Below are positions 1-17,689 of a DNA stretch of 17,746 nucleotides, one piece after another (the first letter of the stretch is position 1; every line of letters starts with the position of its first letter). The notes beneath the pieces are model-generated. The model was not told the DNA's origin. It saw nothing but the letters and a program-made list of their open reading frames with translations, and did not search any database. Location: positions 1-17,746 of the forward strand of contig JAFYIK010000163.1 of the NCBI GenBank assembly GCA_017538685.1, in the 5' to 3' direction. The translations under genes were made by a program, and so were the position numbers. The stretch comes from Bacteroidales bacterium (GTDB lineage Bacteria; Bacteroidota; Bacteroidia; Bacteroidales; UBA932).

Positions 1-1
1 C

Positions 2-733
2 CTCTTCCGGTGGATCAAGGGTTCCGCGGCGATGAACATCGCCCTCGCGATCATAGCCCTGCTCTTCCTCCGGATTGTGGTGGATGCCCTGAAGATGAGG
101 ATGATGTCCTCGCTGCTGGGTACGGTGATCGACGTTGGCGCGGTAGCGCTGATTGTGATCTTCCAGCCGGAAATCAGGCACTTCCTCTACAATCTCGGCC
201 GCAGCACCTTCTCGGGCGAGGGCAACTCCTGGCTCGGCAAGCTCTTCCGCAGGCGCGAGGCGATCCTCGTCGCGGATATGGCCGACGAGGTGGTCCAGGC
301 CTGCTTCGAGATGGCGGAGCAGAAGGTGGGAGCGCTGATAGTATTCACCTCCGCCGACCCTCTCGAGGACATAGTGTCCACGGGCGACAAGCTGGACGCG
401 ACCATCAGCAAACCCCTTATCGAGAACATCTTCTTCAAGAACTCGCCGCTCCACGACGGAGCGATGGTCATACGCGGCAGCCGCATTGTGGCGGCCCGCT
501 GCACCCTGCCCATCACGGACAGGACGGACATCCCGGCCCGCTACGGTATGCGCCATAAGGCGGCCATAGGCATAACCGAGAAGACTGATACCAAAGTGAT
601 AGTGGTGAGCGAGCAGACCGGCGACGTATCCTTCGTTGCAGACGGCAAACTCGAGAAGATCAAGAGCAAGACCACCTTAAAACTCAAGCTCGCAGATGAC
701 GGACAGAAGACTGGAAGCGAAGCTGGGGTTTGA
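2..733 (+). CDS. cdaA: Diadenylate cyclase CdaA (c-di-AMP synthase), 5'-truncated by window edge
   Basis: Membrane-anchored DisA_N-domain enzyme that condenses two ATP into the second messenger c-di-AMP. The frame is open from base 2 and continues upstream of the Met at base 32, and the residues before that Met (LFRWIKGSAA) fit the loop after the first membrane helix of the family, so the true start lies outside the window. What remains is hydrophobic membrane segments (about bases 32-175) followed by the cyclase domain. The catalytic DGA motif is at bases 455-463. The second signature, normally RHR, reads RHK at 551-559 and is followed by AAIGITE. The last 38 bases overlap mutS2, which implies coupled translation. 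Identity is confident; whether RHK affects activity is unknown. Confidence 0.93.
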   Translation, partial: LFRWIKGSAAMNIALAIIALLFLRIVVDALKMRMMSSLLGTVIDVGAVALIVIFQPEIRHFLYNLGRSTFSGEGNSWLGKLFRRREAILVADMADEVVQACFEMAEQKVGALIVFTSADPLEDIVSTGDKLDATISKPLIENIFFKNSPLHDGAMVIRGSRIVAARCTLPITDRTDIPARYGMRHKAAIGITEKTDTKVIVVSEQTGDVSFVADGKLEKIKSKTTLKLKLADDGQKTGSEAGV

Positions 734-3173
734 CAAGGTCCGGGAGACCATCTCCAACCGGTGCCAGACTGAATACGCCGCCGACAGGGTTGCCGGCGAG
801 GAGTTCTGCGCGGACGCCGATGAAATACGCCGCAGGCTTCAGCTCACGGACGAAATGAGGCTCGTGCTGATGTTCGAGGACAGTTTTCCCACCACCGGTT
901 ACATCGACGCCCTCCCCTTCCTCGCTCCCCTTTTGAAAGAGGGCTTCAGTATGGACAAGCTCTCTCTTGCCAAGCTGGGCTCGCTTCTGGAACTTTCCCG
1001 CAAAACCTCCCAGTTCTTCGTGTCCATCAAGGACGGCGTGTATCCGTCGCTGAAAAAGCTGACCGCGAAGATGGTCTCCTTCCCGGAAGTGCGCCGCAGG
1101 ATAGAGAGCATACTGGACAAATACGGCGAGATCAAGGACTCCGCCTCCGACGAGCTGCTGCACATCCGCCAGGACCTCCGCGCCAAGGAAGCGGCCATCT
1201 CCAAGAAAGCCACGGCCATCCTCAACAGCGCCAAGGAAGATGGGATAGTGGACGGCGACTCTGCGGTCTCCGTGCGCGACGGCAAGTTCCTCATTCCCGT
1301 GAGCACATCCGCCAAGCGCAAGATCCGCGGCTTCGTCTACGACCTCTCGGCCTCCGGCAAAACCACCTTCGTGGAACCGGCCGAGGTGATCGAACTTGAA
1401 AATGAAATCAGCGAGCTGCGTTTCGAAGAAGCCCGCGAAATCTCCCATATCCTCTACGCCTTCAGCGAATTCGTGCGCCCCTACGTCCCCGACCTTATGG
1501 AGACCGCGCGCACGCTCGGGGAGGTGGATTTCCTGATCGCGAAAGCGCAGACGGCGCTGGACTATGTCGCCGGCGTGCCCGTGGTCAGCACCGACGGCTC
1601 GCTGAGCCTGCGCAAGGCCCGCCATCCCCTGCTTGAAAAGTCGCTGAAGAAGGAAGGGCGGCAGATCTGCCCACTCACGGTCAGCCTCACACCGCAGAAG
1701 CGCCTGCTGATCATCTCCGGCCCCAACGCGGGAGGAAAGTCGGTCTGCCTTAAGACCACCGGCCTGCTGCAGTATATGTTCCAATGGGGTATGCTGGTCC
1801 CCACGTCCGAAAGCTCCGAGCTGCCGGTGTTCGACCGCATACTCGTGTGCATAGGCGACGACCAGTCGCTGGAAAACGACCTCAGCACCTACAGCTCCTT
1901 CCTCGCGGATATGAAGGATATGCTCGCGAAAGCGGACGAGCGCACTCTGATCCTGATCGACGAATTCGGATCCGGCACCGAACCTGCGGCGGGCGGGGCG
2001 ATCGCAGAGGCCATCCTCGCGGAATTCGACCGCCGCGGCGCGTACGGAGTCATCACCACGCACTACACCAACATCAAGCTCTATGCGGCCGGGGAGAACA
2101 CGCACGCCGTGAACGGGGCTATGCTCTACGACACCTCGAAGATAGCGCCGCTGTTCCAGCTTAAAATCGGTATGCCGGGCAACTCGTTCGCCTTCGAGCT
2201 GGCGCGCAAGATGCAGCTGCCGGAACCGATAGTGAAGGATGCGGAAACGCGCGCCGGCGAGGAGTTCGTGGGGATAGAGAGGAACCTTCGCAAGATAGCG
2301 AAGAACCGCCGCGTGCTGGACGAGAAGATCCGTAAGGTCAAGACCACGGACAAGAACCTCGAAGAACTGGCAGACCAGTACGAGCGGGAGCTTGAAGACA
2401 TACGCAGCCGCAAGAAAGAGATCCTCGACCAGGCGCGCCTGGAGGCGGAAGAAATAATCCGCAGCGCTGGCAAGCAGGTCGAAAAGACTATCAAGGACAT
2501 CAAGGAAAGCAACGCCGAAAAAGAGCGCACGAAAGAGGCGCGGGCCGAGTTGTCCGGTTTTATGGCCGCCCTGGAGGAGCGCAAGAGCAAGGAGCGCAGG
2601 GAGCAGGACGAATACATCGAGCGCAAGAAGGCCCTTCTGAACAAGCGCAAGAAGAGCGCGAAGAACACCGAAGAAAGCCGCGAAGAGGCTTTCCGCAGCG
2701 CGCCGCTGAAGATAGGCGAGAAGGTACGCGTGAAGTCGAACGGGATGGTCGGCGAGGTGGTCGGCGTGAGCGGGAAGAAGGTGACCGTGGTGATAGGCAA
2801 CATCACCAGCAAGCTGCCCTCCGAGCGGGTGGAGCGCATCTCCTCGAACGAGTACAAGGAAGCGTCGAAGAAGAGCTTCACGCCCGTCTACGAGAAGCGC
2901 GACCCTGCGATCACGGCACGCAGGCTGAACTTTTCCCCCGAGCTGGATATCCGTGGCGAGAGGCTGCAGGCCGCTATGGACATAGTGGTCCGCTATATCG
3001 ACGACGCGCAGATGCTCGGAATCGGGTCCGTGCGCATTATCCACGGCAAGGGCACGGGCGCGCTGCACGACGAAATACAGAGATACCTGAAAACTGTGCC
3101 CGGAGTGCTCTCCGTGGCCGATGAGGACATACGCCACGGCGGCTCTGGAGTCACCGTGGTCACATTCGAATAA
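696..3173 (+). CDS. mutS2: MutS2 family protein (ATPase with C-terminal Smr domain)
   Basis: MutS2 proteins bind branched DNA or collided ribosomes and act in recombination control or ribosome rescue, not in classical mismatch repair. The 825-residue length is normal. The N-terminal core domain opens with KLGFDKVRETI. Walker A is GPNAGGKS at residues 342-349, the STYSSF signature at 397-402, Walker B LILIDEFGSGTEP at 418-430, and the following TTHY at about 454-457. A long charged coiled coil spans roughly 500-665, then a KOW-like segment (about 675-715). The Smr domain starts at LDIRG (750-754) and has HGKGTG at 783-788, followed by ALH where ALR is usual. The ATG at 696 lies inside cdaA and is chosen because it gives the family's usual N-terminus. 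The gene is followed 2 bases later by the YraN-family gene. Confidence 0.97.
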   Translation: MTDRRLEAKLGFDKVRETISNRCQTEYAADRVAGEEFCADADEIRRRLQLTDEMRLVLMFEDSFPTTGYIDALPFLAPLLKEGFSMDKLSLAKLGSLLELSRKTSQFFVSIKDGVYPSLKKLTAKMVSFPEVRRRIESILDKYGEIKDSASDELLHIRQDLRAKEAAISKKATAILNSAKEDGIVDGDSAVSVRDGKFLIPVSTSAKRKIRGFVYDLSASGKTTFVEPAEVIELENEISELRFEEAREISHILYAFSEFVRPYVPDLMETARTLGEVDFLIAKAQTALDYVAGVPVVSTDGSLSLRKARHPLLEKSLKKEGRQICPLTVSLTPQKRLLIISGPNAGGKSVCLKTTGLLQYMFQWGMLVPTSESSELPVFDRILVCIGDDQSLENDLSTYSSFLADMKDMLAKADERTLILIDEFGSGTEPAAGGAIAEAILAEFDRRGAYGVITTHYTNIKLYAAGENTHAVNGAMLYDTSKIAPLFQLKIGMPGNSFAFELARKMQLPEPIVKDAETRAGEEFVGIERNLRKIAKNRRVLDEKIRKVKTTDKNLEELADQYERELEDIRSRKKEILDQARLEAEEIIRSAGKQVEKTIKDIKESNAEKERTKEARAELSGFMAALEERKSKERREQDEYIERKKALLNKRKKSAKNTEESREEAFRSAPLKIGEKVRVKSNGMVGEVVGVSGKKVTVVIGNITSKLPSERVERISSNEYKEASKKSFTPVYEKRDPAITARRLNFSPELDIRGERLQAAMDIVVRYIDDAQMLGIGSVRIIHGKGTGALHDEIQRYLKTVPGVLSVADEDIRHGGSGVTVVTFE

Positions 3174-3175
3174 CT

Positions 3176-3562
3176 ATGGAAAACGTCAGAAGCAAAACAG
3201 GGCAAAGAGGCGAGCAGGAAGCCTGCCGCTATCTGGAAAGCCTCGGCCACCTTATAGTGGAGCGCAATTGGAGACACTCGCACAAAGAGGTGGACATTAT
3301 TTCGCTGAGCGAAGGGAAGGTGCTGCACATAGTGGAGGTCAAAAGCAAGACCGAACCGGTGGTGGCGAAGCCCGAGCTTAGCGTGGACGGAAAGAAAATG
3401 CAGAATCTGGCGGCGGCCGCGCGCGGTTACCTCCACTCTGCGAACAGGATAAAATTACCAACCGATCTGGAGGTTGTGTTCGACGTGGTGTCGGTCGTGT
3501 TTTCCGACCAGGGCCCGCGAATAGAATATTTCCCCCAGGCATACATACCAACTTATGCTTAA
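3176..3562 (+). CDS. YraN/UPF0102 family nuclease-like protein
   Basis: Small 128-residue protein of the UPF0102 (YraN) family, which has a PD-(D/E)xK nuclease-like fold and is often linked to DNA processing; its biochemical function is not settled. Visible family features are GxxGExxAxxYL at the N-terminus (E13), a core acidic motif KEVDII (D40), and VEVKSK (E54, K56), which together match the D...ExK catalytic arrangement. The start lies 2 bases after the mutS2 stop and the end overlaps manC by 8 bases, so it is part of the same transcript. Its position next to mutS2 is compatible with a DNA-metabolism role, but that is inference. Confidence 0.92.
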   Translation: MENVRSKTGQRGEQEACRYLESLGHLIVERNWRHSHKEVDIISLSEGKVLHIVEVKSKTEPVVAKPELSVDGKKMQNLAAAARGYLHSANRIKLPTDLEVVFDVVSVVFSDQGPRIEYFPQAYIPTYA

Positions 3563-4625
3563 CAGTCACTATTATTGCGCGATAATGGCCGGCGGTCTCG
3601 GAACCCGTTTCTGGCCCATCAGCCGCAAGGCGCTGCCCAAACAGTTCCTCGTGTTCACTGAAGGAGGCAAGACCTTCCTTCAGCAGGCCTATGAAAGGAT
3701 GTCGATGGTCGTGCCAGAGGATAATATCCTGATAGTCACGCTGAAAGAATATAAGGACATAGTCAGGCAGCAACTCCCGTACATCGCGGAAGAAAACATC
3801 CTGCTGGAACTCTACAACCGCAACACCGCGCCGAGTATCACCTACGCGGCGAAAGAGATAATGCGCAGGGACCCGGAGGCGGTGATGATTGCCACCCCGG
3901 CCGACCATATAATCGAGGGCCTGGACGAGTTCAAGGCCACTATGGACTGCGCGCTGGACTACGCCGCGTCGCACGACGAACTGGTCACGCTCGGCATCCT
4001 GCCAACGCGTCCGGACGCCAACTTCGGCTACATCCAGGTGAGCGGAGGGCACGACGTGATTAAGGCCCGCACCCCCGTGCCGGTGAAGACCTTCACCGAA
4101 AAGCCCACGAAGGAAATAGCCGAACTCTTTCTCAAGAGCGGCGAATTCCTGTGGAACTCCGGTATCTTCGTCTGGCAGGCGAGGGTGATTCTGGAGGAAC
4201 TGGGTCATTACGCGCCGGGCATCATTTCGCTATGGGAGCATTCCAACGACATAGACCGGATCTACACCGACTGCCCGCGCACTTCGATAGACTACGCGGT
4301 GATGGAAAAGACCGGCCGCGCGACCGTGTTCCCCTCGAAGTTCAAATGGGCCGATATAGGCACCTGGGAGTCGCTCTACGACAACATCGGCAATCCGGAC
4401 CGCACTGGAAACGTTACCAACATATCCGGCAAGCACCTCTTCAAGGAGGATGAGGAGAATATCATCTACTGCCAGAAAGAAGGTAAGCTGATTGCCATAC
4501 GCGGACTGGAAAATATGATAGTGGTGGACACGGACGACGTGCTGATGATCTGCCCGCGCAACGAACGCAAAGTGAAGGAGTTTCTTTCGGAACTCGCAAT
4601 GCCTGAATACGAAGATTACAGATAG
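3555..4625 (+). CDS. manC: Mannose-1-phosphate guanylyltransferase
   Basis: Converts mannose-1-phosphate and GTP to GDP-mannose, the donor for surface polysaccharides and a precursor of GDP-fucose. The nucleotide-binding signature GGLGTRFWP (residues 13-21) is followed by SRKALPKQFL. Further family motifs are PADH (115-118), FTEKP (180-184), WNSGIF (200-205) and WADIGTW (265-271). At 356 residues it is the single-domain form; the C-terminal phosphomannose isomerase domain of bifunctional AlgA-type enzymes is absent. The ATG at 3555 overlaps the upstream gene by 8 bases and leaves three bases before thrA. Its place between DNA-metabolism and aspartate-family genes has no obvious pathway logic. 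Confidence 0.95.
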   Translation: MLNSHYYCAIMAGGLGTRFWPISRKALPKQFLVFTEGGKTFLQQAYERMSMVVPEDNILIVTLKEYKDIVRQQLPYIAEENILLELYNRNTAPSITYAAKEIMRRDPEAVMIATPADHIIEGLDEFKATMDCALDYAASHDELVTLGILPTRPDANFGYIQVSGGHDVIKARTPVPVKTFTEKPTKEIAELFLKSGEFLWNSGIFVWQARVILEELGHYAPGIISLWEHSNDIDRIYTDCPRTSIDYAVMEKTGRATVFPSKFKWADIGTWESLYDNIGNPDRTGNVTNISGKHLFKEDEENIIYCQKEGKLIAIRGLENMIVVDTDDVLMICPRNERKVKEFLSELAMPEYEDYR

Positions 4626-4628
4626 GAT

Positions 4629-6587
4629 ATGGAGGTTTTGAAATTCGGCGGTACTTCCGTGGCGAACGCCACTGCGATTTCGAGGGTGCTCGACATCGTG
4701 GATGCGGCGCGCTCGAGGGGTAAGGTCGTGCTGGTCTGCTCTGCCATAAGCGGATGCACGGACGCGCTGATAGCTATGTCGGCCCTTGATGAGGCCGAGA
4801 GGGTTGAAGCCGGTAAAGCAATCCTTGACAGGCATAATTCCATTGTCAACAGATTGTTCACAGGCAACGAGCGCCGCAGCGTTTCGCAGATAGTGCAGGA
4901 GACTTACAAGGATCTGTTCGAGGCCGACCCGGAAGATTATCAGACCTTCGGGGAACTGTTCTCCACGAGGATCATAGCGGCCAAGCTTCGCTGCGACGGA
5001 GTGAACGCGCTCTGGCTGGATTCGCGCGACCTGATACGCGTGAACGGTCAGACTGTGGACGAGCTTTCCACCTATAAGCGCATATGCAAGGCAGTTGCCG
5101 ACCATCCTGAAGTGGAAGTGTTCGTGGTGCCGGGCTTCATCGGTTCGGACTACGAAGGGCACGTCCGCACGCTGGGGCGCGGCGGGTCGGACTACACTGC
5201 GTCGCTTTTCGCCGCGGCGCTCCGTGCGGACGATCTGCAGATATGGACCGACGTGCCGGGTATTATGACCACCAATCCCAAGGATGTCCGTTCCGCCCGC
5301 ACGATCCCGCAGATCAGCTACAAAGCGGCGTTCACGCTCGCGGCCAGCGGCGCGAAGGTGCTTTATGCTCCGGCTGTGGAACCGGCAAGGGAGGCCGGGC
5401 TGAACATACGTATCCTGGACACTTTCCACCCGGACCATCCGGGCACGGTGGTGGGACCGTTCCCCTGTCGCGAGCAGGGCGAGTGGGTTGGCATCGCCTG
5501 CCAGAAATACCCTTCTGATTCGAAGCTGTGCCTAGTGGCCGACGGACCGCTGGACGAGTCGGTGGTCGGAGAACTGCGCTTGAGGCTCGAGCGGGCGAAT
5601 ATCGTAACGAAGAGCATCCTTCTTACGGACGGCGACCACGTGCTGATTTCGCTCGCCCACGGCGATGAAATCGAAGCGCTGCGCACCTGCCATTATATCT
5701 GCTTCGAGACTGACGATTCGGTGGACGTGTATCTGGCCGGCGAGGGCAAGGTTGGTAAAGCTTTGCTTGACATCATCCATAACACCGATAACCGCATCAA
5801 CATCCGGCTTATCTCCCGCCACGAATGTGAAGACGAAGAGTTCTTCCGCGAGATGTTCGCAACCGCAGCCGGAAAATCCGTGTTCGTGGACTGCACGGAC
5901 AGCGAGACTATCTATAAATGGTATGTGCCAGTGCTGGAAGCCGGCATCAACATAGTGTCGTCCAACCGCCGCGCGCTGAGCGTCCCGTACGCGGAGTTTG
6001 CGCTGATGAAGCGGACGGCCCGCCGTATGCGCAGGTTCCTCCGCTACGAGACGACCGTGGGCGCGGCGCTCCCTATCCTGGATTCGATCAATATGAGCGC
6101 CAACAGCGCGGACGAGATACTCACTATCGAGGCGGTGGTTAGCTGCACGCTCAATTATATTTTGACTAGCGGGCTTCCGTTCGAAGACGCACTCCGCAAG
6201 GCCCAGGAGATCGGGCTCACGGAGAAGGATCCGAGTATGGACCTCGGCGGCAAGGACGCGGTGCGCAAGCTTCTGATTCTCGCCCGTGAGGCCGGTGTGC
6301 CGCTGGAGGAGTCCGACGTGCAGATAGAGCCGGTGGACGGAGCGGCAGTGCAGCCCGGTCAGAGGTTCGTCGCGTCCATAGAGAAAGACCCCGCTGCGCC
6401 TAAGGGCTACCGTGCGGCAATCAGGCTGCAGACGGTCGGGCCCGACGATCCGGCGTGGGGAGTGCGGGGCACGGACAATATGATCAGCATACGCAGCGCG
6501 TTCCACCCTTCGCCCCTGATTATCCAGGGTGCCGGCGAGGGAGCCAAGATGGCGGCGTCGAGCGTGCTTAACGACATTTTACGATGA
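4629..6587 (+). CDS. thrA: Compact bifunctional aspartokinase/homoserine dehydrogenase
   Basis: Catalyses the first step of the aspartate family (aspartate to aspartyl phosphate) and the reduction of aspartate semialdehyde to homoserine. The kinase half shows KFGGTSV (5-11), FGELFSTR (107-114), RGGSDYT (184-190) and TTNPKD (214-219). Residues about 285-365 are only enough for one ACT-like regulatory unit. The dehydrogenase half has the dinucleotide motif GEGKVG (371-376), TTVGAALPI (475-483), and GKDAVRKLLIL (541-551) with D543 and K547 in the expected catalytic positions. At 652 residues it is well below the roughly 810-820 of E. coli ThrA, mostly because the regulatory region is short. The usual NK after the second strand is N446-R447. 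It is followed by dapE with an ATGA overlap. No thrB, thrC or asd is nearby. Confidence 0.93.
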   Translation: MEVLKFGGTSVANATAISRVLDIVDAARSRGKVVLVCSAISGCTDALIAMSALDEAERVEAGKAILDRHNSIVNRLFTGNERRSVSQIVQETYKDLFEADPEDYQTFGELFSTRIIAAKLRCDGVNALWLDSRDLIRVNGQTVDELSTYKRICKAVADHPEVEVFVVPGFIGSDYEGHVRTLGRGGSDYTASLFAAALRADDLQIWTDVPGIMTTNPKDVRSARTIPQISYKAAFTLAASGAKVLYAPAVEPAREAGLNIRILDTFHPDHPGTVVGPFPCREQGEWVGIACQKYPSDSKLCLVADGPLDESVVGELRLRLERANIVTKSILLTDGDHVLISLAHGDEIEALRTCHYICFETDDSVDVYLAGEGKVGKALLDIIHNTDNRINIRLISRHECEDEEFFREMFATAAGKSVFVDCTDSETIYKWYVPVLEAGINIVSSNRRALSVPYAEFALMKRTARRMRRFLRYETTVGAALPILDSINMSANSADEILTIEAVVSCTLNYILTSGLPFEDALRKAQEIGLTEKDPSMDLGGKDAVRKLLILAREAGVPLEESDVQIEPVDGAAVQPGQRFVASIEKDPAAPKGYRAAIRLQTVGPDDPAWGVRGTDNMISIRSAFHPSPLIIQGAGEGAKMAASSVLNDILR

Positions 6588-7576
6588 TAGATCCCAAGAT
6601 ACTTTCCCTCTTTGAAGAGGTTCTGCGCATAGACTCCACATCGGGCAGCGAGCGCAAACTGGCCGAGTTCGTGCTGAGATACCTGGAAGCTCCTTCCAAG
6701 GAGGGCTTCGAGGTTGGCGACGGCACCCTGAACGTGCTGCTGATGTGGGGCGAAAAACCCAAGGTGGTGTTCTGCTCGCATCTGGACACCGTGCCGCCGT
6801 ATATCCCTCCGACCTTTGCGCACGACTCCGTCGCGGGCCGCGGCGCGTGCGACGCCAAGGGGCAGTGGATAAGTATGTATGCGGCCTGCAAGGAGCTGGA
6901 GCGCCGCGGCCGGGACGGCTTCGCGCTGCTTCTGCTCAGCGGCGAGGAGGTGGGATCGGTGGGCGCGAAGGCGTTCTCCGGTTCGTTGAAGGCCCCGCTG
7001 CTGGTGATCGGCGAACCGACGGACAACATCCCGGTTTCGGCTGCGAAGGGAACCAAATCCTACGATTTGAAATTCACCGGCGAGCCCTTCCACAGCGGCT
7101 ATCCCGACAAAGGACGCAGCGCGGTGGAGATGTTTATGGACTTTATGATAGGGCTGGAGATAGAGGCCGACTTCCCCGTGGACCGCGCGCTCGGCGAGAC
7201 CACCTGGAACGTGGGGATGCTTCGCAGCGACAACCCGAAGAACGTGCTGAGTCCGGAACTGACCTGCCAGCTTTATTTCCGCACCACTTTCGCCAGCGAC
7301 GTGCTCGTGCAGAAGTGGATGGAGCGCCGCAGACCGGGAGTTGAGGTGGTGGCCCGCGGAGGCGATGCGCCGTGGGAATACTACGTCCCCGAAGGCTTCA
7401 AGGGTAAACCCGTGGCCTTCGGCAGCGATGCGCCGCATCTGGCCGGTTTTGACAAAAAGACAATCTGCGGACCGGGCTCAATCTTTGTTGCCCACCGCGA
7501 CGACGAACAGATCACGTTCGCCGAAATGGAGAAAGCCATAGATAATTACATAAAGATTTATGAAGGTTATAATTAG
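6584..7576 (+). CDS. dapE: M20 family metallopeptidase, probable succinyl-diaminopimelate desuccinylase (DapE-type)
   Basis: Dinuclear zinc amidohydrolase of the M20 family. The metal ligands and catalytic residues are visible: H66 and D68 (HLDTV), D90 (CDAKG), the E121-E122 pair (SGEE), E144 (GEPT) and H304 (AHRDDE). H170 in HSGYPDKGRS lies in the short dimerisation domain. At 330 residues it is shorter than E. coli DapE (375). Sequence alone does not separate DapE from ArgE or LysK type deacylases. The substrate is inferred from its neighbours: it starts within the thrA stop (ATGA), overlaps dapB by 17 bases, and the other dedicated steps of the succinylase route follow directly. Family certain; DapE function likely. 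Confidence 0.75.
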   Translation: MIDPKILSLFEEVLRIDSTSGSERKLAEFVLRYLEAPSKEGFEVGDGTLNVLLMWGEKPKVVFCSHLDTVPPYIPPTFAHDSVAGRGACDAKGQWISMYAACKELERRGRDGFALLLLSGEEVGSVGAKAFSGSLKAPLLVIGEPTDNIPVSAAKGTKSYDLKFTGEPFHSGYPDKGRSAVEMFMDFMIGLEIEADFPVDRALGETTWNVGMLRSDNPKNVLSPELTCQLYFRTTFASDVLVQKWMERRRPGVEVVARGGDAPWEYYVPEGFKGKPVAFGSDAPHLAGFDKKTICGPGSIFVAHRDDEQITFAEMEKAIDNYIKIYEGYN

Positions 7577-9861: not shown

Positions 9862-9866
9862 TTTTG

Positions 9867-11006: not shown

Positions 11007-11824
11007 CACACTATCTGTACTCAGGAGCCGGAAACACTTTCGTTGTTCTGGACGGCCGCGAAGTCACCGGGGAAGTTGATATTATCGGCCTTTGCGCGAA
11101 ATATCACACGGACGGTCTGATGATACTGCATCGGTCGAAGGAATGGGACTTCGAAATGGAGTTCTTCAACCCCGACGGCACGGGCGGAATGATGTGCGGG
11201 AACGGCGGGCGCTGCATAGTAGCCTTCGCCGATTACCTCGGCATCAAGCCCGCCGACGGAAAAGTGTATCATTTCATAGCCGGCGACGGGCCGCATACTG
11301 GAGAAATACTGTCTTCTTCTGTCATTCCCGACCTGATCGGGAATCTTAAAACCATCCGCATCCGGATGATAGACGTGAACGAGTTCCGCCGCGAACTGGA
11401 CGGCTGGTTCGTGAACACCGGCACACGGCATTTCGTGAAGTTTGTTCCCGAGGTGGAGGGGCTGGATATGGACGCGGAGGGCAAGCGCTACCGTTGGGAT
11501 CCCGTTTTCGCCCCGGTCGGCGCCAACGCCAATTTCGTGAAGGTGGAGCCGGAGCGACTGGTTGTGCGCACGTTCGAGAAAGGGGTGGAGGGTGAGACGC
11601 TCGCTTGTGGTACAGGAATTACCGCCTCCGCCGTGGCCGCATATCTGTCCGGCACGTCCGGCACAGAAGCCGACGGGCGCGTACTATATAATATCCGCGC
11701 ACGCGAAGATGATTTGAAGGTGGAGTTCCGCCCCGTGGTGGAGAATGGAAGCCTGACGGGCTTTACAGACGTCTACCTTACCGGCCCTGCCAATTGTTGG
11801 GGTTGCGAACAGTCTGATTGTTAG
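11003..11824 (+). CDS. dapF: Diaminopimelate epimerase, with in-frame palindromic insertion
   Basis: Cofactor-independent racemase converting LL- to meso-diaminopimelate with two cysteines as acid/base pair. C65 in MMCGNGGRC and C202 in TLACGTGITASA are both present, as is the N-terminal GAGNTFVVLD motif. Length 273 is typical. Residues 104-116 (SSS then VIPDLIGNLK) are encoded by a palindromic repeat (bases 11321-11345) and sit between GDGPHTGEIL and TIRIRM, a turn between strands, so the fold is probably tolerant. The last residues after VYLTGPA are Cys-rich (NCWGCEQSDC), and this 3' end overlaps the minus-strand small gene by 47 bases. It ends the diaminopimelate gene run; no T-rich terminator is evident after it. 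Confidence 0.94.
   Translation: MTHYLYSGAGNTFVVLDGREVTGEVDIIGLCAKYHTDGLMILHRSKEWDFEMEFFNPDGTGGMMCGNGGRCIVAFADYLGIKPADGKVYHFIAGDGPHTGEILSSSVIPDLIGNLKTIRIRMIDVNEFRRELDGWFVNTGTRHFVKFVPEVEGLDMDAEGKRYRWDPVFAPVGANANFVKVEPERLVVRTFEKGVEGETLACGTGITASAVAAYLSGTSGTEADGRVLYNIRAREDDLKVEFRPVVENGSLTGFTDVYLTGPANCWGCEQSDC
11324..11344. repeat. REP-like palindrome inside dapF
   Basis: Perfect inverted repeat with 8-base arms ATTCCCGA and TCGGGAAT around the 5-base loop CCTGA, in a wider motif that begins GTCATTCCCGACC. In the dapF frame it reads VIPDLIGN. From memory, this peptide and its other-frame versions recur in predicted proteins of several phyla because a mobile palindromic repeat is translated; this is recall, not a search result. 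Confidence 0.75.
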
Positions 11825-12026
11825 GATTCATAATGGGCTGATTCGGCCCTGTCAGCTGCCTGATATAACCTTCCTGGGTATCGCTTGTTGTGATATCGCC
11901 GCGTCCGGAGCCAAACCACCGGTCGCGAGGCACCGCAGTGAAATACGCTACGGCCGTGAAAACTACTGCTATCCAGAATAGGACTGTCCCTAACGATACG
12001 CCCCTCTTTAAGATCTTCTTAGGCAT
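11778..12026 (-). CDS. Hypothetical small single-pass membrane protein
   Basis: Unrecognised 82-residue protein on the opposite strand to all neighbours. It has a basic N-terminus (MPKKILKRG), one hydrophobic helix at about residues 11-31, and a polar tail rich in Asn, Pro and Gln that ends with two similar NPNN units (NPNNQTV, NPNNWQG). Support for a real gene: an unusually good Shine-Dalgarno AAGGAG five bases before the ATG, a TATCTTTG promoter-like box at 12046-12053 on the same strand, and its near-complete fit to the only intergenic gap in the region. Its last 47 bases are antisense to the end of dapF. A chance open frame cannot be excluded, and function is unknown. Confidence 0.6.
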   Translation of the reverse strand: MPKKILKRGVSLGTVLFWIAVVFTAVAYFTAVPRDRWFGSGRGDITTSDTQEGYIRQLTGPNQPIMNPNNQTVRNPNNWQGR

Positions 12027-12045
12027 AACTACTCCTTAACAGGGC

Positions 12046-12053
12046 CAAAGATA
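12046..12053 (-). promoter_or_regulatory. Bacteroidota-type -7 box for the small minus-strand gene
   Basis: Minus-strand TATCTTTG matches the TAnnTTTG -7 consensus of the primary sigma factor in Bacteroidota and lies about 20 bases before the ATG at 12026. No well-spaced TTTG -33 element is visible, so it is a box match only. Confidence 0.5.
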
Positions 12054-12065
12054 GCAAAAAATTAC

Positions 12066-12073
12066 TAAATTTG
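12066..12073 (+). promoter_or_regulatory. Bacteroidota-type -7 box for aspS
   Basis: TAAATTTG matches TAnnTTTG, 30 bases before the aspS ATG in an AT-rich stretch (about 12051-12106) that stands out from the GC-rich coding DNA. A convincing -33 element is not seen. It is divergent from, and 12 bases from, the minus-strand box at 12046-12053. There is no Shine-Dalgarno in front of aspS, as is usual in this phylum. Confidence 0.55.
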
Positions 12074-12103
12074 AGGTTCAGACAAACAATAGTCGTTTAA
12101 TAT

Positions 12104-13870
12104 ATGTACAGAACCAACACTTGCGGCGAGTTAAGACTCTCCGACAAAGGTAAAACAGTTACCCTCGCGGGGTGGGTTCAGAAATCCCGCAAACTTGGAG
12201 GTATGACCTTCATCGACCTCCGCGACCGTTATGGAATCACACAGTTGGTAGTGGACGCCGGAGCAGCCCCGCAACTTGCAGAACTTGCCGAATCGCTCGG
12301 CCGTGAGTTCGTGATCCAGGTCACCGGCGAGGTGCTTGAGCGCCAGAGCAAGAACCCGAAGATTCCCACGGGAGAAATCGAGATTAAAGTCCAGTCTATC
12401 AACATATTAAACAAATCTGTTACTCCGCCTTTCACCATCGAGGAGAACAGCGACGGCGGAGAGGATCTGCGCGCGAAGTACCGTTATCTGGACCTTCGCC
12501 GTCCGCCGCTCCAGCGCGCCCTGGCTCTCCGCCATCGCCTCGCACAGGAGATAAGGACCTATCTGGACGGACAGGGCTTTATGGAGATCGAGACCCCGTA
12601 TCTCATCAAGTCCACCCCCGAAGGCGCACGCGATTTCGTTGTGCCTTCCCGTATGAACCCCGGCCAGTTCTACGCTCTCCCGCAGAGCCCCCAGACTTTC
12701 AAGCAGCTGCTGATGGTGGCGGGCTATGACCGCTACTTCCAGATTGTACGCTGCTTCCGCGATGAGGACCTCCGCGCCGATCGTCAGCCCGAGTTCACGC
12801 AGATCGACTGCGAGATGAGCTTCGTCGAGCAGGAGGATGTCCTGAACACCTTCGAGGGTATGATGCGCGCGATGTTCAAGAACGCAGTGGGCGTGGATAT
12901 TCCCAACCCGCTGCCGCGTATGAGCTGGTACGACGCTATGGACAATTACGGCTCGGACAAACCGGACATCCGCTTCGGAATGAAGATCCACGAAATAAGC
13001 GAACTCGTGAAAGGCTGCGGCTTTTCCGTGTTCGACAGCGCCGAATACGTGGGCGCCATCAATGTGGAGGGCTGCGCGGAGTACACCCGCAAGCAGCTGG
13101 ACGAACTCACCGAATGGGTTAAGCGCCCTCAGGTGGGGGCGAAGGGCCTGGTCTACATCAAGCTCAACCCGGACGGAACGGTCAAGTCCAGCGTGGATAA
13201 ATTCTACACCCCGGAGCAGCTGCAGAAAGTGGCCGACACCCTCGGCGCAAAGACGAACGACCTTATCCTCGTGCTCTGCGGTCCGAAGCGCAAGACCCAG
13301 ACCCAGCTCGGCGTGCTGCGTATCGAGATGGGGAGCCGTCTCGGCCTTCGCGATCCCCACGTCTTCGCTCCGCTGTGGATAGTTGACTTCCCTCTGCTCG
13401 AATGGAGCGAGGAAGACGGCCGCTTCTACGCTATGCACCATCCGTTCACGGCCCCGAAGCCCGAACACGAAAAGTGGTTCTATTCCGACAAGAAGGAGGA
13501 TCTCGAACGTGTGTGCGCAAACGCCTACGACTTCGTGCTTAACGGCTGCGAGCTCGGCGGCGGAAGCATCCGTATCCACAACGCGGATATGCAGAAACGT
13601 ATGTTCGAGGTGCTCGGCATAGGCCCGGAGGAAGCGGAATACAAGTTCGGCTTCATCATCAACGCCTTCAAATTCGGCGCTCCGCCCCACGGAGGACTGG
13701 CATTCGGCTTCGACCGTGTCTGCGCCCTCTTCGGCGGACAGGAGACTATCCGTGACTACATCGCGTTCCCGAAGAACAACCAGGGCCGCGACGTGATGAT
13801 AGATTCCCCGAGCCAGATCGACCAGGTGCAGATGGACGAGCTTTTCCTTGCCAGCACTGTGAAAGAATAA
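12104..13870 (+). CDS. aspS: Aspartyl-tRNA synthetase
   Basis: Class II aminoacyl-tRNA synthetase of the bacterial type, 588 residues, charging tRNA-Asp. Domain order: N-terminal OB fold (about 1-105, [20 protein letters not shown]), catalytic core with [18 protein letters not shown] (about 161-178), [10 protein letters not shown] (195-204) and motif 2 [20 protein letters not shown] (218-237), the bacterial GAD insertion (about 285-410), then [20 protein letters not shown] and motif 3 GLAFGFDRV near residue 532. The start follows the AT-rich promoter interval. The stop shares one base with the murB start (TAATG), so it heads the second gene run. Whether it is Asp-specific or also makes Asp-tRNA-Asn cannot be decided here. 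Confidence 0.97.
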
Positions 13871-14883
13871 TGATAAGAAGGTCCGACAACCACGATCTCA
13901 GCGCGCAGAACACTTTCCGTATGAAGGTGTCCTGCGCCTGCTATATCGAGTACGACACCATCGAAGACCTCAAATCGCTGGATTTCGATTCCCTGCCGAA
14001 GCCGATTATGAGCATAGGCGAGGGATCGAACTTGCTTTTCACCAAAGATTTCGAGGGCACCGTCCTTCGCTCCTGCATCGATTACATCAAGTACTTCGAC
14101 GCCGGCGCGGACAGGGTGCCGCTCGCAGTAGGCTCCGGCGTGAGATGGGACGACCTGGTGGCGAAGACCTGCGCGGACGGGATGTGGGGGATGGAGAATC
14201 TATCCCTTATCCCCGGCACTGTGGGAGCGGCGGCGGTGCAGAACATCGGCGCCTACGGAGTGGAGGCCAAGGACATAATCGCCGGCGTCACCTGCTTCGA
14301 CCTTCAGACCCGCGACAAAACGGCCTTCAAGGTCCACGAACTGCGCTACGGCTACCGCGACTCCCTCTTCAAGGACCCGGAGTTCAAGGGACGCTACATT
14401 ATCACCGGCGTGCTGTTTTCGCTCAGCCGCGTGCCCGCCCCGAAGATAGAATACGGCGCGCTGAAGAAGATTTTCGACGGACGTCAGCCCGCCTCGCCGC
14501 TTGAGGTGCGCGAAGAAATTATCCGTATACGCCGCGATAAGCTCCCGGATCCGGAAGAGATCGGCAGCGCCGGCAGTTTCTTCAAGAATCCGGTCGTGAG
14601 CGCGGCGCAGTTCGCGCAGATCGCAGCCGGCTACGACACCGTCCCGCACTTCCTGCTCGAAGGCGGGTTCGTGAAGGTGCCCGCGGCGTGGATGATCGAG
14701 CAGTGCGGGTTCAAGGGCGTCCGGCGTGGAGGCGCAGCCGTCTATGAGAAGCAGCCGCTCGTGATCGTGAACGCCAGCGGCGAGGCGAGCCCGGAAGAGA
14801 TCGTTGCGCTGGAGCAGGAGGTTATCGATGCCGTCCGCGCCAAGTTCGGCGTCCAGCTGCACCCCGAAGTAGAACACATCTAA
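13870..14883 (+). CDS. murB: UDP-N-acetylenolpyruvoylglucosamine reductase
   Basis: FAD and NADPH dependent enzyme making UDP-MurNAc, the second committed step of peptidoglycan synthesis. Type I MurB of 337 residues: FAD-binding GEGSNLLF (50-57), LSLIPGTVGAAAVQNIGAYG (111-130), R163 in RYGYRDS, the proton donor S236 in GSAGSFFKNP, and E333 in LHPEVEHI, which match the E. coli R159, S229 and E325 triad. The N-terminus SAQNTFRMKV is the usual type I beginning. Translation start overlaps the aspS stop by one base, and murA follows after 12 bases. Confidence 0.96.
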   Translation: MIRRSDNHDLSAQNTFRMKVSCACYIEYDTIEDLKSLDFDSLPKPIMSIGEGSNLLFTKDFEGTVLRSCIDYIKYFDAGADRVPLAVGSGVRWDDLVAKTCADGMWGMENLSLIPGTVGAAAVQNIGAYGVEAKDIIAGVTCFDLQTRDKTAFKVHELRYGYRDSLFKDPEFKGRYIITGVLFSLSRVPAPKIEYGALKKIFDGRQPASPLEVREEIIRIRRDKLPDPEEIGSAGSFFKNPVVSAAQFAQIAAGYDTVPHFLLEGGFVKVPAAWMIEQCGFKGVRRGGAAVYEKQPLVIVNASGEASPEEIVALEQEVIDAVRAKFGVQLHPEVEHI

Positions 14884-14895
14884 CCACAAGCTATA

Positions 14896-16203
14896 ATGAG
14901 TTCGTTCATCATCGAAGGAGGCCGTAAACTCAGCGGCTCAATCACACCCCAGGGAGCGAAAAACGAAGCGCTCGAGGTGCTCAGCGCGGTGCTTCTTACC
15001 GCCGAGCCAGTCAGGATGTCCAACGTGCCGGAAATTCTGGACACGCTCAACCTCATCGACCTTCTGAAAGGGATGGGAGTCGAGGTCACGCGCCACGCAA
15101 AAGGAGATTATACCTTCAAGGCTGAGAACATCGACCTCGAGTATATCCGCAGCCAGGAATTCGTGCGCAAGTGCGCGGCCCTGCGCGGCTCCGTGATGAT
15201 TTCGGGACCGCTGCTCGCCCGCTACGGCGAGGCGTATTTCCCGAAACCCGGCGGAGACAAGATCGGCCGCCGCAGGATAGACACTCATATCGAGGGTTTC
15301 GTGAAGCTCGGCGCTTCCTATATCTACGACTCCGCCGTGAAGGCTTATCACCTCACCGCCCCGAAGGGCCTGACAGGCAGCTATATGCTTCTGGATGAGG
15401 CTTCCGTCACCGGTACGGCCAATATCGTGATGGCAGCCACCCTCGCCCGGGGCACGACCACCATCTACAACGCCGCCTGCGAGCCGTATGTGCAGCAGTT
15501 GAGCAAGATGCTGGTCGCTATGGGCGCCCGCATCGAGGGAATAGGATCTAACCTCATTACCGTCCACGGCGTGGAGAAGCTCGGTGGCGCGAGCCACGTG
15601 ATACTGCCCGATATGATCGAGGTCGGCTCTTTCATAGGCCTGGCCGCAATCACGCGCAGTTCGCTGACTATCAAGAACGTGCATTACGACGAGCTAGGCA
15701 TCATCCCCGAAAGCTTCCGCCGCCTTGGCGTCAAGCTCGAGCAGAGGGGCGACGACATTTATATCCCCGCGCAGGAGTCGTATGTGATCGATTCGTTCAT
15801 CGACGGCTCGATTATGACCATCGCCGACGCACCGTGGCCCGGACTCACCCCGGACCTTCTGTCCGTGATGCTCGTCGTGGCCACCCAGTGCAAGGGCTCG
15901 GTCCTCATCCACCAGAAGATGTTCGAGAGCCGTCTGTTCTTCACCGATAAACTGATCGATATGGGCGCCCAGATTATTCTGTGCGACCCTCACCGCGCAG
16001 TCGTAATCGGCCACGACCACAATTTCAGCCTCCGCGCCGGGCGTATGACTTCGCCTGATATCCGTGCGGGTATCGCTATGCTGCTTGCCGCCCTGTCTGC
16101 GAAGGGAACTTCCGAGATAGAGAACATCGAGCAGATCGACCGCGGTTACGAAGCCATCGACGAACGCCTCAACGCCCTCGGAGCAAACATCAAGAGAAAG
16201 TAA
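14896..16203 (+). CDS. murA: UDP-N-acetylglucosamine 1-carboxyvinyltransferase with Asp at the fosfomycin-target position
   Basis: Transfers enolpyruvate from PEP to UDP-GlcNAc, the first committed step of peptidoglycan synthesis. Two-domain inside-out barrel of 435 residues. K22-N23 are in QGAKNE. The catalytic loop is KPGGDKIGRRRIDTH (117-131). The Cys attacked by fosfomycin in E. coli (C115) is replaced by D121, codon GAC at 15256-15258. ADAPWPGLTPD and the C-terminal DRGYEAIDERL match MurA, not AroA. This Asp form is active and fosfomycin-insensitive in other bacteria that have it. Followed directly, with no gap, by the DUF456 gene. Confidence 0.96.
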   Translation: MSSFIIEGGRKLSGSITPQGAKNEALEVLSAVLLTAEPVRMSNVPEILDTLNLIDLLKGMGVEVTRHAKGDYTFKAENIDLEYIRSQEFVRKCAALRGSVMISGPLLARYGEAYFPKPGGDKIGRRRIDTHIEGFVKLGASYIYDSAVKAYHLTAPKGLTGSYMLLDEASVTGTANIVMAATLARGTTTIYNAACEPYVQQLSKMLVAMGARIEGIGSNLITVHGVEKLGGASHVILPDMIEVGSFIGLAAITRSSLTIKNVHYDELGIIPESFRRLGVKLEQRGDDIYIPAQESYVIDSFIDGSIMTIADAPWPGLTPDLLSVMLVVATQCKGSVLIHQKMFESRLFFTDKLIDMGAQIILCDPHRAVVIGHDHNFSLRAGRMTSPDIRAGIAMLLAALSAKGTSEIENIEQIDRGYEAIDERLNALGANIKRK

Positions 16204-16680
16204 ATGGTAACGCTTGAAGTTTTCGCCGTCATCCTCGCGGTGCTCGGCATAATAGGCAGTGTCGTGCCAGGTATCCCGGGTCCGCCGCTCAGCTGGATAG
16301 GATTGTTTCTGCTGTATCTGGCCCATCTGCCGGATCCGGTGTCGGTCACAACGTTGATTGTGTTTCTGGTGGTAGCGACCGTCATCACCGTGCTGGATTA
16401 CGTCCTACCTCCGACCCTAACCCGTGCGTTGGGAGGCCATAAAGCCGCTTCGGTCGGCGCAGTAATCGGCCTGTTCGCCGGAATGTTCCTCACTCCTATC
16501 GGAATGATTCTCGGAAGCATCCTCGGAGCGTTCATAGGAGAAATGGTGGTTGAAAACCGCGGCTTCTGGGATTCGCTGAAGGCTTCGATAGGAGCGTTCC
16601 TGGGCTTCATCCTCACCACCGGCGCGAAACTGATCGTGTGCGGCTGGATTTTCCTGATTATAATCAAACATATCATATGA
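16204..16680 (+). CDS. DUF456 family integral membrane protein
   Basis: 158-residue membrane protein of unknown function. The N-terminal motif GIIGSVVPGIPGPPLSWIG (about 15-33) is the DUF456 hallmark. About four hydrophobic helices follow, including a Gly-rich stretch (GAVIGLFAGMFLTPIG, then GSILGAFIGE) that looks like tightly packed helices. It begins immediately after the murA stop and its own stop is shared with the next start (ATGA), so it is cotranscribed with the peptidoglycan genes. A role at the envelope is plausible but not shown. Confidence 0.9.
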   Translation: MVTLEVFAVILAVLGIIGSVVPGIPGPPLSWIGLFLLYLAHLPDPVSVTTLIVFLVVATVITVLDYVLPPTLTRALGGHKAASVGAVIGLFAGMFLTPIGMILGSILGAFIGEMVVENRGFWDSLKASIGAFLGFILTTGAKLIVCGWIFLIIIKHII

Positions 16681-17498
16681 GACGTCTTTTAGCAGCGCTC
16701 GCGGCGTGCGTGATGGCCGCATCGTGTACTCTTCCCGCCCTCGAGGAAACCGTCACCATCGACGGCGCAGTCGGGAAACTGGTCGGCGACATCCAGCGCC
16801 CGGCCGTGAAGGGACGCAAAGTGCCCACGGTCATCATCTGCCACGGCCTCACCGGCTGGCGCTCCGAGAATCACAATATGGCGGTGAACGATTCGCTGCT
16901 TGCCCACGGCTATGCGACCGTCCGTTTCGATTTCAACGGCCACGGCGAGAGCGAAGGCCCCTTCAGCGGAATGACCATTGAGAATGAGCTGGAGGATCTG
17001 CACCACATCTACGACTATGTCGCAGGCCTGCCGTGGGTGGATAAGCACCGCATTGCGGTGGCCGGGCACTCGCAGGGCGGCTTCGTTGCGGGAGTGTTCG
17101 CCGGCGATATGGGAGTCGGGAAGGTCAAGTGCGCCGTCCTGCTCGCCCCGGCCGCCTGCATCCACGTTGACGCGGTGAACGGACTCTTCTTCGATGAGCC
17201 TGCAGAGGTCGAGAAGATGGCCGATTCGACATTCTTCTGGGGCCACTGGTTCGGCAAGGACTACTTCCGCGCCGCACGCGATATCGACGTCTACGCCCGC
17301 TCTGCCGCCTACGAAGGCCCGGTGCTCATCGTCCAGGGCGACAACGATATGCCAAATCTGTTCAGGGATTCGAAGGAATACCAGAAATATCTTCAGGACT
17401 GTATGTACGTCGAGCTCCCCGGCCTGACGCACTGCTACGTGGAAAATTACGCCCTCCCCGCCAGCATCACACTGACCTTTATTCAGGAGAACCTGTAG
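16677..17498 (+). CDS. Predicted lipoprotein alpha/beta hydrolase (esterase-like)
   Basis: Alpha/beta hydrolase of 273 residues in the S33/cinnamoyl-esterase-like group. The oxyanion region is CHGLTGWRSENH (55-66). The nucleophile is S132 in GHSQGG, and the likely triad partners are D224 in GDND and H252 in LTHCY. The first 17 residues, MRRLLAALAACVMAASC, form a signal peptide ending in a lipobox-like AASC, so C17 is probably lipidated and the enzyme is exported. The ATG at 16677 is chosen over one 13 codons upstream because it places this signal peptide at the N-terminus and gives the ATGA overlap. Substrate is unknown; feruloyl, acetyl and peptide esters are all possible. Confidence 0.88.
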   Translation: MRRLLAALAACVMAASCTLPALEETVTIDGAVGKLVGDIQRPAVKGRKVPTVIICHGLTGWRSENHNMAVNDSLLAHGYATVRFDFNGHGESEGPFSGMTIENELEDLHHIYDYVAGLPWVDKHRIAVAGHSQGGFVAGVFAGDMGVGKVKCAVLLAPAACIHVDAVNGLFFDEPAEVEKMADSTFFWGHWFGKDYFRAARDIDVYARSAAYEGPVLIVQGDNDMPNLFRDSKEYQKYLQDCMYVELPGLTHCYVENYALPASITLTFIQENL

Positions 17499-17537
17499 TT
17501 TCCTTCTTTTCCTGGTAGGATATTTCGAAAATTGTAT

Positions 17538-17545
17538 TACCTTTG
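17538..17545 (+). promoter_or_regulatory. -7 box for the tRNA-Ala gene
   Basis: TACCTTTG fits the TAnnTTTG -7 consensus and ends 11 bases before the first base of the tRNA, so transcription would begin just upstream of the mature 5' end. The 58 bases between the hydrolase stop and the tRNA contain no terminator hairpin that I can see, so read-through from the upstream genes is possible. Confidence 0.6.
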
Positions 17546-17556
17546 CAGTCCGCAAT

Positions 17557-17629
17557 GGGGTATTAGCTCAGTTGGTAGAGCGTTTGAATGGCATTCAAAA
17601 GGTCAGGAGTTCGATTCTCCTATGCTCCA
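17557..17629 (+). tRNA. tRNA-Ala, anticodon GGC
   Basis: Complete cloverleaf of 73 bases. Acceptor GGGGTAT pairs with ATGCTCC, the D stem is GCTC/GAGC, the anticodon stem TTTGA/TCAAA encloses loop ATGGCAT with anticodon GGC, and the T stem AGGAG/CTCCT encloses TTCGATT. The third acceptor pair is G3-U70, the main alanine identity element, and the discriminator is A. The genome continues with CAA, so CCA must be added after transcription. It reads GCC and GCU alanine codons, which are common in these genes. Confidence 0.96.
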
Positions 17630-17672
17630 CAAATAAGTCCAGCCAATCCGGCTGGATTTTTTTGTGGAGCAT
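17622..17672. repeat. 51-base imperfect palindrome spanning tRNA 3' end and terminator
   Basis: Outer arms ATGCTCCACAAA (17622-17633) and TTTGTGGAGCAT (17661-17672) are exact reverse complements. They flank TAAG and TTTT, then the terminator stem. With one T-T mismatch and one G-T wobble the arms pair for about 23 positions. The left arm contains the 3' acceptor strand and discriminator of the tRNA. Confidence 0.85.
17638..17663 (+). terminator. Rho-independent terminator of tRNA-Ala
   Basis: Perfect 7-base stem TCCAGCC/GGCTGGA with loop AATCC followed directly by seven T. It starts nine bases after the tRNA 3' end. The stem is the inner part of a longer imperfect palindrome. Confidence 0.9.
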
Positions 17673-17689
17673 GCCCGTCTGCGACGGGC
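17673..17689. repeat. Short perfect hairpin in the window tail
   Basis: GCCCGTC/GACGGGC around the 3-base loop TGC, directly after the long palindrome and with no T run behind it. The remaining bases to the window end (17690-17746) hold no feature I can identify. Confidence 0.55.

Follow-up and report, generated by a model that had tools for sequence, protein, structure and literature searches.

Near-complete loss of the palindrome CATG from the backbone chromosome of a Cryptobacteroides-like Bacteroidales lineage

Introduction

How a bacterial lineage comes to purge one four-base palindrome from its chromosome is the question raised by the DNA analysed here, a stretch of 17,746 bases that we refer to as the window. 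It belongs to the backbone chromosome of a Cryptobacteroides-like member of the Bacteroidales, a rumen or gut bacterium, from a lineage purged of CATG. An earlier note on this DNA had described the absence of CATG from its first 17,669 bases and read it as probable long-term selection, as expected of a lineage carrying or often exposed to a CATG-specific restriction system or a mutagenic methylase. In the part of the study drawn on here, Rusinov 2015 (PMC4687349) ties site avoidance to orthodox Type II systems, lost ones included, reads avoidance without a found system as the trace of a lost one, and sets the avoidance threshold at a ratio of 0.78. A literature search at the level of titles and abstract openings found no report of CATG avoidance in the Cryptobacteroides-like clade.

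Results

The stretch without CATG (1..17669, either strand) extends from cdaA to a tRNA-Ala (GGC) gene (17557..17630, plus strand; ARAGORN and Rfam) and its terminator-like hairpin. The only copy in the window lies at 17670..17673 (either strand), 40 bases beyond the tRNA gene, and the absence first described is therefore exact. Sixteen genes on the plus strand (32..17498, the first running off the window start) contain no coding CATG; ten of their proteins were named with NCBIfam and the remaining ones by eye. Base composition predicts 65.1 copies in the window, a Markov estimate from 3-mers and 2-mers predicts 49.2, and 200 order-2 Markov sequences contained 29 to 71. With both strands pooled, CATG is the most depleted tetramer of the window, followed by CTAG (4 observed, 20.9 expected). 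Shuffling synonymous codons 2000 times, with the protein sequences and the pooled codon usage unchanged, gave 68.7 ± 5.4 CATG in the coding DNA with a minimum of 51, and swapping only among codons with the same next base gave 59.2 with a minimum of 43, against zero observed. Neither shuffle, the first of a kind suggested with the original observation, reproduces the deficit, and the palindrome is scarcer than codon usage and oligomer content predict, as in Type II avoidance.

The trace of this depletion is visible in the codons. Where a codon ending in C or T precedes ATG in the window, it ends in T in 66 cases and in C in none, compared with 2427 C-ending and 729 T-ending codons overall. Histidine before G is written CAC 31 times and never CAT (elsewhere CAC 40, CAT 31), and none of the 28 NCN codons before TG ends in A. 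The effect on synonymous codons that the earlier note had seen before ATG is thus real, but it is not confined to the NNC-ATG frame, as CATG is avoided in all three reading frames of the window genes.

The window's aspS gene (12104..13870, plus strand; named by eye and by matches) served as anchor for relatives and for a tree. The AspS-anchored loci collected from Cryptobacteroides-like Bacteroidales number 80, and in the 74 long ones used for ratios CATG falls below 0.2 of expectation in 16 and reaches 0.6 or more in 44. The nearest relatives of the window, with aspS DNA up to 86% identical, are not depleted, and the depletion state requires at least 13 changes on the 81-row aspS tree. Several relatives therefore seem to have lost CATG independently, and the purge looks both recurrent and fast. 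The tetramers found below 0.2 of expectation were only the palindromes CTAG, CATG and GATC, plus CTAA in one locus. Scarcity of CTAG is general among bacteria, and here CTAG is below 0.2 in 56 of 71 loci, that is, low across nearly the whole clade, so some scarcity of palindromes is general. This likeness lends a little to the idea that composition, codon bias, chance or an assembly artefact accounts for the missing sites, an idea that is nevertheless scarcely credible: the shuffles never reach the deficit, sister species of similar GC have normal CATG, the sites are replaced by synonyms instead of being missing, and the depleted loci stem from several bin series and hosts. CATG differs from CTAG in its distribution: CTAG is scarce in most members of the clade, whereas CATG can be depleted in one sister species and not in the other.

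Pairs of relatives reveal how the sites were lost. In the cleanest sister pair, L020 to L030 (90% identical), 1 of 62 CATG sites was kept, compared with a tetramer mean of 0.66; C was retained before ATG in 1 of 51 cases and before AT[ACT] in 190 of 210. The losses in this pair fall in all three frames, are mostly synonymous (both amino acids unchanged in 54 of 58 coding losses) and include transversions. Mutagenic decay would explain the disappearance without selection, for instance through cytosine methylation in CATG followed by deamination to TATG or CATA, and some features of the window agree with it: when L001 is compared with the window, TATG most often stands in place of CATG (14 of 21 sites), and 9 of 10 losses at fourfold sites of the window went to T, compared with 18 of 62 in the background (p 0.0004). 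In the same comparison, however, all 4 CAT|G sites turned into CAC|G and both NCA|TG sites into NCG|TG. Losses of NCA|TG to NCC|TG occur as well, and the exclusive use of CAC before G in the window likewise speaks against decay of the cytosine. In two pairs of relatives, C was replaced roughly according to the ordinary spectrum of the lineage, with fourfold-site losses of T 17, A 8 and G 7 (background T 73, A 46, G 53) from L020 to L030, and of T 1, A 2 and G 10 (background T 17, A 5, G 49) from L034 to L066. The losses are thus not confined to the changes from C to T (or G to A) that mutagenic cytosine methylation would leave, and m5C methylase genes occur in 4 of 22 depleted and 5 of 28 normal genomes. 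Cytosine decay alone does not fit, and the mutagenic methylase of the earlier note is unlikely, with the T bias of the window leaving it some room.

The depletion extends across the genomes of the relatives sampled. G002 is the depleted relative with the best sampling; 13 of its 19 stretches contain no CATG, and the copies that are present sit in two restriction-modification islands, in a tRNA, in 16S rRNA and near contig ends. Depletion is absent from the sister of G002 and from 18 further Bacteroidota samples, and some other depleted genomes are far from fully cleaned (CATG 167/1041 in G005, 46/477 in G014 and 44/297 in G006). Because any gene that carries the palindrome also has it in its mRNA, coding DNA alone cannot distinguish a DNA-level agent from one acting on RNA, for example an mRNA-cleaving endoribonuclease specific for CAUG. 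The sites in 16S rRNA and tRNA could be shielded by structure from such an enzyme, and the divergent gene gaps of G018 and G005 keep 3 CATG each, clustered within one gap. An RNA-level agent is nonetheless very unlikely, given that G002 has a single intergenic CATG in 20.7 kb (within the tRNA) compared with 97 in 53.5 kb in G034, and none in 5.3 kb of divergent gaps compared with 20 in 8.7 kb. A CATG endonuclease acting without methylation, which the chromosome survives only by having no sites, would be in keeping with the many G002 stretches at zero and with the lack of a recognised CATG methyltransferase in the relatives searched. It is even harder to credit, because the 5 CATG in the partial 16S gene of G002 and the 20 and 9 in its island-bearing stretches would be cut. 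Instead, the persistence of CATG in 16S, one tRNA and imported islands indicates that sites are tolerated, as they would be under methylation. Depletion that is genome-wide in the relatives sampled, acts at the DNA level and proceeds through neutral-looking substitutions is as expected of Type II avoidance, and it fits strong DNA-level selection on CATG in this clade. Selection against the tetramer, as first proposed, is borne out by the involvement of all frames, the mostly synonymous losses and the intergenic deficit; its description as long-term is not, given the normal near relatives and the repeated changes on the tree.

Genes for a CATG-reading agent were sought in 50 relatives (22 depleted, 28 normal), which are incomplete binned genomes and were given a heuristic first look. 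The IceA/NlaIII endonuclease (PF05315) and an NlaIII-type methyltransferase (protein query), the enzymes to which the earlier note had pointed, were each found in 0 of 50, PF05063 had no match in any genome searched, and the incomplete bins of the 22 depleted relatives yielded no recognisable CATG restriction-modification genes. In these searches PF05315, PF05063 and the NlaIII-type query matched no genome at all, not even a control where one was included, and taken by themselves these negatives carry little weight; the PF05315 model did match in G218, outside the 50. PF02086 gives a stronger negative, as it recognises the L157 methyltransferase at 1.8e-48. Six methyltransferase families were searched in the 50 relatives, and none of the five with matches was associated with depletion (p 0.34–1.0); in 6 of the 22 depleted genomes, not one of the five exceeds the cut-off. 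HsdM-like proteins were clustered for a subgroup tracking depletion, and none clearly did. A D12 methyltransferase occurs in 2 of 22 depleted genomes, in G002 beside an N6_N4 gene, as in DpnII sets, and in G008, where it is DpnM-like by eye. The two islands of G002, one with these D12 and N6_N4 genes and one with EcoRII, an m5C methylase and Vsr, were discarded as candidates for the cause: both stretches carry CATG, and their recognition words are presumably GATC and CCWGG, respectively.

Relatives of the L157 methyltransferase are found in 114 plasmid records, 12 phage records and thousands of proteins, with several Bacteroidota among the 120 protein relatives listed and some phage relatives annotated as 'ulcer associated adenine specific DNA methyltransferase'; none of the listed plasmid (20 of 114) or phage records names a Bacteroidales host. 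It is possible that plasmid-borne CATG systems were missed by the incomplete bins, whose incompleteness makes a missing system weak evidence. The agent may accordingly be extrachromosomal or of an unknown family: either selfish plasmid CATG systems whose killing on loss the host escapes by ridding itself of all CATG sites, or a DNA agent of uncharacterised type that reads CATG and lacks any methyltransferase that could be recognised. The empty search and the lack of association with known methyltransferase families agree with this, as does GATC, which behaves like CATG and is most strongly depleted in L060, L058 and L015, genomes without a D12 match. We regard this explanation as possible but doubtful. 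The same incompleteness weakens what supports it, and no CATG plasmid from the Cryptobacteroides-like clade was seen among the 20 plasmid records listed. In addition, plasmid-borne systems typically leave few traces, according to the part of Rusinov 2015 (PMC4687349) used here.

Discussion

Restriction remains the best reading of the CATG loss, and we infer, with a probability of roughly 0.6, that it was caused by an orthodox Type II-like CATG-cleaving restriction-modification activity. Such an enzyme would occasionally cut CATG sites that lack methylation, be it following replication or upon loss of the system; every site would then carry a small cost, and cheap synonymous escapes would become fixed. 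DNA that was imported recently, and RNA sites that are hard to change, would retain CATG, since methylation renders these copies tolerable. The system may have been gained and lost repeatedly, possibly on plasmids dropped by metagenome binning, which would explain the differences between sister species and the failure to see its genes in the bins. The restriction system proposed in the earlier note is thus retained as the favoured explanation, although the search recognised no CATG restriction-modification genes in the 22 depleted relatives and methyltransferase content does not track depletion.

Several observations count against restriction: no system was recognised and no family is associated, G218 and Helicobacter pylori provide the counter-examples described below, the window has its T bias, and some depleted genomes are not clean. 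The likeness to orthodox Type II avoidance, as far as the consulted part of PMC4687349 describes it, lies in a four-base palindrome depleted in the host chromosome, with related genomes that differ. Near-complete loss here differs from the partial deficit there, as do the turnover between sisters ~10% apart and the failure to recognise a system in 50 relatives. NlaIII and HpyI-IceA restriction-modification would read the very word lost here; neither was recognised in those relatives, and elsewhere such enzymes occur without depletion. The Bacteroidota genome G218 carries an NlaIII-type methyltransferase together with a fragment of IceA, yet its CATG is not depleted (95/142), and in H. pylori, where M.HpyI is universal, CATG is reported as the densest methylated motif (PMC10423294).

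Restriction-site avoidance is known mostly as a partial deficit, whereas here sisters within ~10% divergence have erased or kept their sites. One could thereby measure directly how strongly and how fast self-restriction selects against sites, and how far this depends on the enzyme being gained or lost. Blocks bearing CATG in a CATG-poor backbone may mark recent imports without a reference genome. If the agent were plasmid-borne or new, the explanation of avoided words without a visible enzyme would change, and if selfish plasmid systems were responsible, the repeated near-extinction of a tetramer would represent escape of the host from addiction by mobile restriction systems.

CATG deficit in the window

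The window contains a single CATG, at position 17670, compared with 65.1 copies expected from base composition and 49.2 from a 3-mer/2-mer Markov estimate, which bears out the earlier note's claim that the tetramer is absent before that point. CATG is the most depleted tetramer of the window, followed by CTAG (4 copies, 20.9 expected). The deficit holds against codon-preserving shuffles as well: none occurs in coding DNA, while 2000 shuffles that kept proteins and codon usage gave 68.7 +/- 5.4 copies (minimum 51), and stricter shuffles that also kept the following base gave a mean of 59.2 (minimum 43). Avoidance is seen in all three reading frames, with NN[CT] codons ahead of ATG ending in T 66 times and never in C, histidine codons ahead of G written CAC 31 times and never CAT, and none of 28 NCN codons ahead of TG ending in A.

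Best NCBIfam matches in the window, some below cut-offs, include cdaA, mutS2, mannose-1-phosphate guanylyltransferase, aspartokinase-homoserine dehydrogenase, dapB, dapD, and dapF, while yraN, dapA, aspS, murB, murA, and DUF456 were named by eye. An aminotransferase at 9864-11006, within the diaminopimelate gene block, scores highest with MocR/PdxR-like models, below cut-off, and may be an unrecognised lysine-pathway aminotransferase. The lone CATG lies 40 bases downstream of tRNA-Ala (17557-17630), beyond a terminator-like hairpin identified by eye. The 3' end of this tRNA, TATGCTCCACAAA (17621-17633), is repeated in inverted orientation as TTTGTGGAGCATG (17661-17673), with 12 of 13 positions complementary, so that the pair flanks the hairpin on both sides and the CATG forms the end of the inverted copy. 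The repeat is possibly an integration junction or a tRNA remnant.

CATG depletion among relatives

Relatives were found by an AspS search of genome contigs, and the best 80 of 428 were retained. They are Bacteroidales or Bacteroidia bins, mostly from rumen or other gut, several of them named Candidatus Cryptobacteroides. CATG depletion is patchy and recurrent among them. In the 74 loci longer than 9 kb, the observed/expected ratio is <0.2 in 16 (<0.05 in 6), 0.2-0.6 in 14, and >=0.6 in 44, and the closest relatives of the window (L001-L003, aspS DNA <=86% identical) have ratios of 0.79-1.06. With ratios <0.36 scored as depleted, >0.7 as normal, and those between uncounted, an aspS tree of 81 rows requires at least 13 changes of state, an approximate figure because the tree is built from a single gene and support is weak at 20 of its 78 inner branches. 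Adjacent tips can be opposite in state, as for loci L030 (1 observed/80 expected) and L020 (70/98), or L017 (0/76) and L022 (103/101). Among other Bacteroidota, the lowest ratio was 0.66 (18 usable of 20 genomes, one stretch of <=20 kb each).

How CATG sites are lost

Across 17.9 kb in which L020 and L030 are 90.1% identical, 1 of 62 CATG sites is kept, whereas the average tetramer is kept at 66%. In codon frames, going from L020 to L030, C is kept in 1 of 51 cases before ATG, 190 of 210 before AT[ACT], and 1898 of 2275 elsewhere, and we estimate the acceleration of C loss before ATG relative to AT[ACT] at ~39 (log ratio). None of seven CAT codons followed by G is kept, every one becoming CAC, nor is the one NCA codon followed by TG. 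Both amino acids are unchanged in 54 of the 58 coding losses.

Such losses could instead reflect decay of cytosine, and the comparison of the window with L001 offers this explanation some support, as 9 of 10 fourfold-site losses there are to T, against 18 of 62 in the background (p 0.0004). However, the same comparison contains CAT to CAC changes before G (4 of 4) and NCA to NCG changes before TG (2 of 2), which are foreign to cytosine decay. Nor are fourfold-site losses limited to T elsewhere: they are T17 A8 G7 from L020 to L030 (background T73 A46 G53) and T1 A2 G10 from locus L034 to L066 (background T17 A5 G49). These spectra are near background, and the L030 and L066 lineages therefore appear to have shed CATG roughly by the usual changes. 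Judged from these alignments, the evidence is against decay, and the loss of CATG is best attributed to selection.

Avoidance at the level of DNA

Intergenic counts used genes called with a home-made script and excluded beforehand two island stretches of G002, the genome of L017, and the CATG-rich stretches of G005, the genome of L030. Intergenic DNA of G002 contains one CATG in 20.7 kb, within a tRNA gene, compared with 97 in 53.5 kb in G034, a tree neighbour of depleted genomes. Divergent gaps contain 0 CATG in 5.3 kb and 20 in 8.7 kb, respectively; those of G005 and the depleted genome G018 contain three each, grouped within one gap. Tetramers below 0.2 of expectation are exclusively palindromes, except for CTAA in one locus: CTAG (56 of the 71 loci whose expected count was sufficient), CATG (17 of 75, the window included), and GATC (3 of 75). 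In the sampled relatives the avoidance acts on DNA, not RNA.

GATC follows a similar pattern: it is scarcest, and nearly outlawed, in loci L060 (0.10 of expectation), L058 (0.14), and L015 (0.16), and D12 methyltransferases had no match in their genomes.

Surviving CATG sites

G002 has no CATG in 13 of 19 usable stretches, each expecting 11 to 75; the 46 copies counted are confined to the other six. Two of these bear restriction-modification islands, one with D12 and N6_N4 methyltransferase genes of the kind seen in DpnII sets and the other with EcoRII, an m5C methylase, and Vsr. One CATG lies inside a tRNA-Phe gene, and the remaining 16 lie within ~1.1 kb of contig ends. Five CATG are retained in the partial 16S rRNA gene of G002 and six in the 16S gene of G022, another depleted genome. 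In G005 (167/1041), a nearly clean backbone is interrupted by discrete CATG-rich blocks, many of low GC. Other depleted genomes have counts of 46/477 (G014), 2/95 (G021), 12/331 (G018), and 44/297 (G006); counts in the tree neighbours are 1108/1625 (G034) and 274/354 (G035). Because imported DNA carries CATG and structural RNA genes retain it, the tetramer is not lethal.

The CATG-bearing EcoRII island (L205:11020-15381), with its endonuclease, m5C methylase, and Vsr, also encodes an unknown 410 aa protein; the rest of that stretch is CATG-free. Around the G022 16S gene (L293:1-9000), eight CATG lie outside 16S in 7.5 kb. Rfam found no 23S there, which could point to a mixed contig or to recent acquisition of the region.

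Search for the agent

Fifty of the 80 relatives (22 depleted, 28 normal) were searched for candidate enzymes. The IceA/NlaIII endonuclease family PF05315 and MT-A70 were found in none. D12 occurs in 8 (2 depleted), N6_N4 in 15 (13 above cut-off, 4 of those depleted), m5C in 9 (4 depleted), N6_Mtase in 23 (11 depleted), and Eco57I in 30 (23 above cut-off, 12 of those depleted). None of these five methyltransferase families is associated with depletion in the 50 relatives (Fisher p 0.34-1.0), and 6 of the 22 depleted genomes have none of them. Since the genomes are incomplete bins, a system could be plasmid-borne or unbinned.

Across 395 Bacteroidota genomes, PF05315 gave one match, a fragment adjoining a D12 methyltransferase in genome G218. 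Some phage relatives of this methyltransferase carry an annotation that we take to be that of H. pylori HpyIM. The G218 enzyme had no match in the 50 relatives, and G218, with its NlaIII-type methyltransferase, is not CATG-depleted (95/142). GATC in G218 (L268-L271) stands at 26/150 despite normal-range CATG. In H. pylori, M.HpyI is universal and CATG is the densest methylated motif (PMC10423294).

Restriction-site avoidance is tied to orthodox Type II systems, lost ones included (PMC4687349), and the CATG pattern is of this kind. As its cause we favour self-restriction by a Type II system specific for CATG, either still in place or lost not long ago, with a probability of roughly 60%. Compared with known avoidance, what is unusual here is the lack of a recognisable agent, together with the near-completeness of the depletion, its pace, and its repeated turnover between close relatives.
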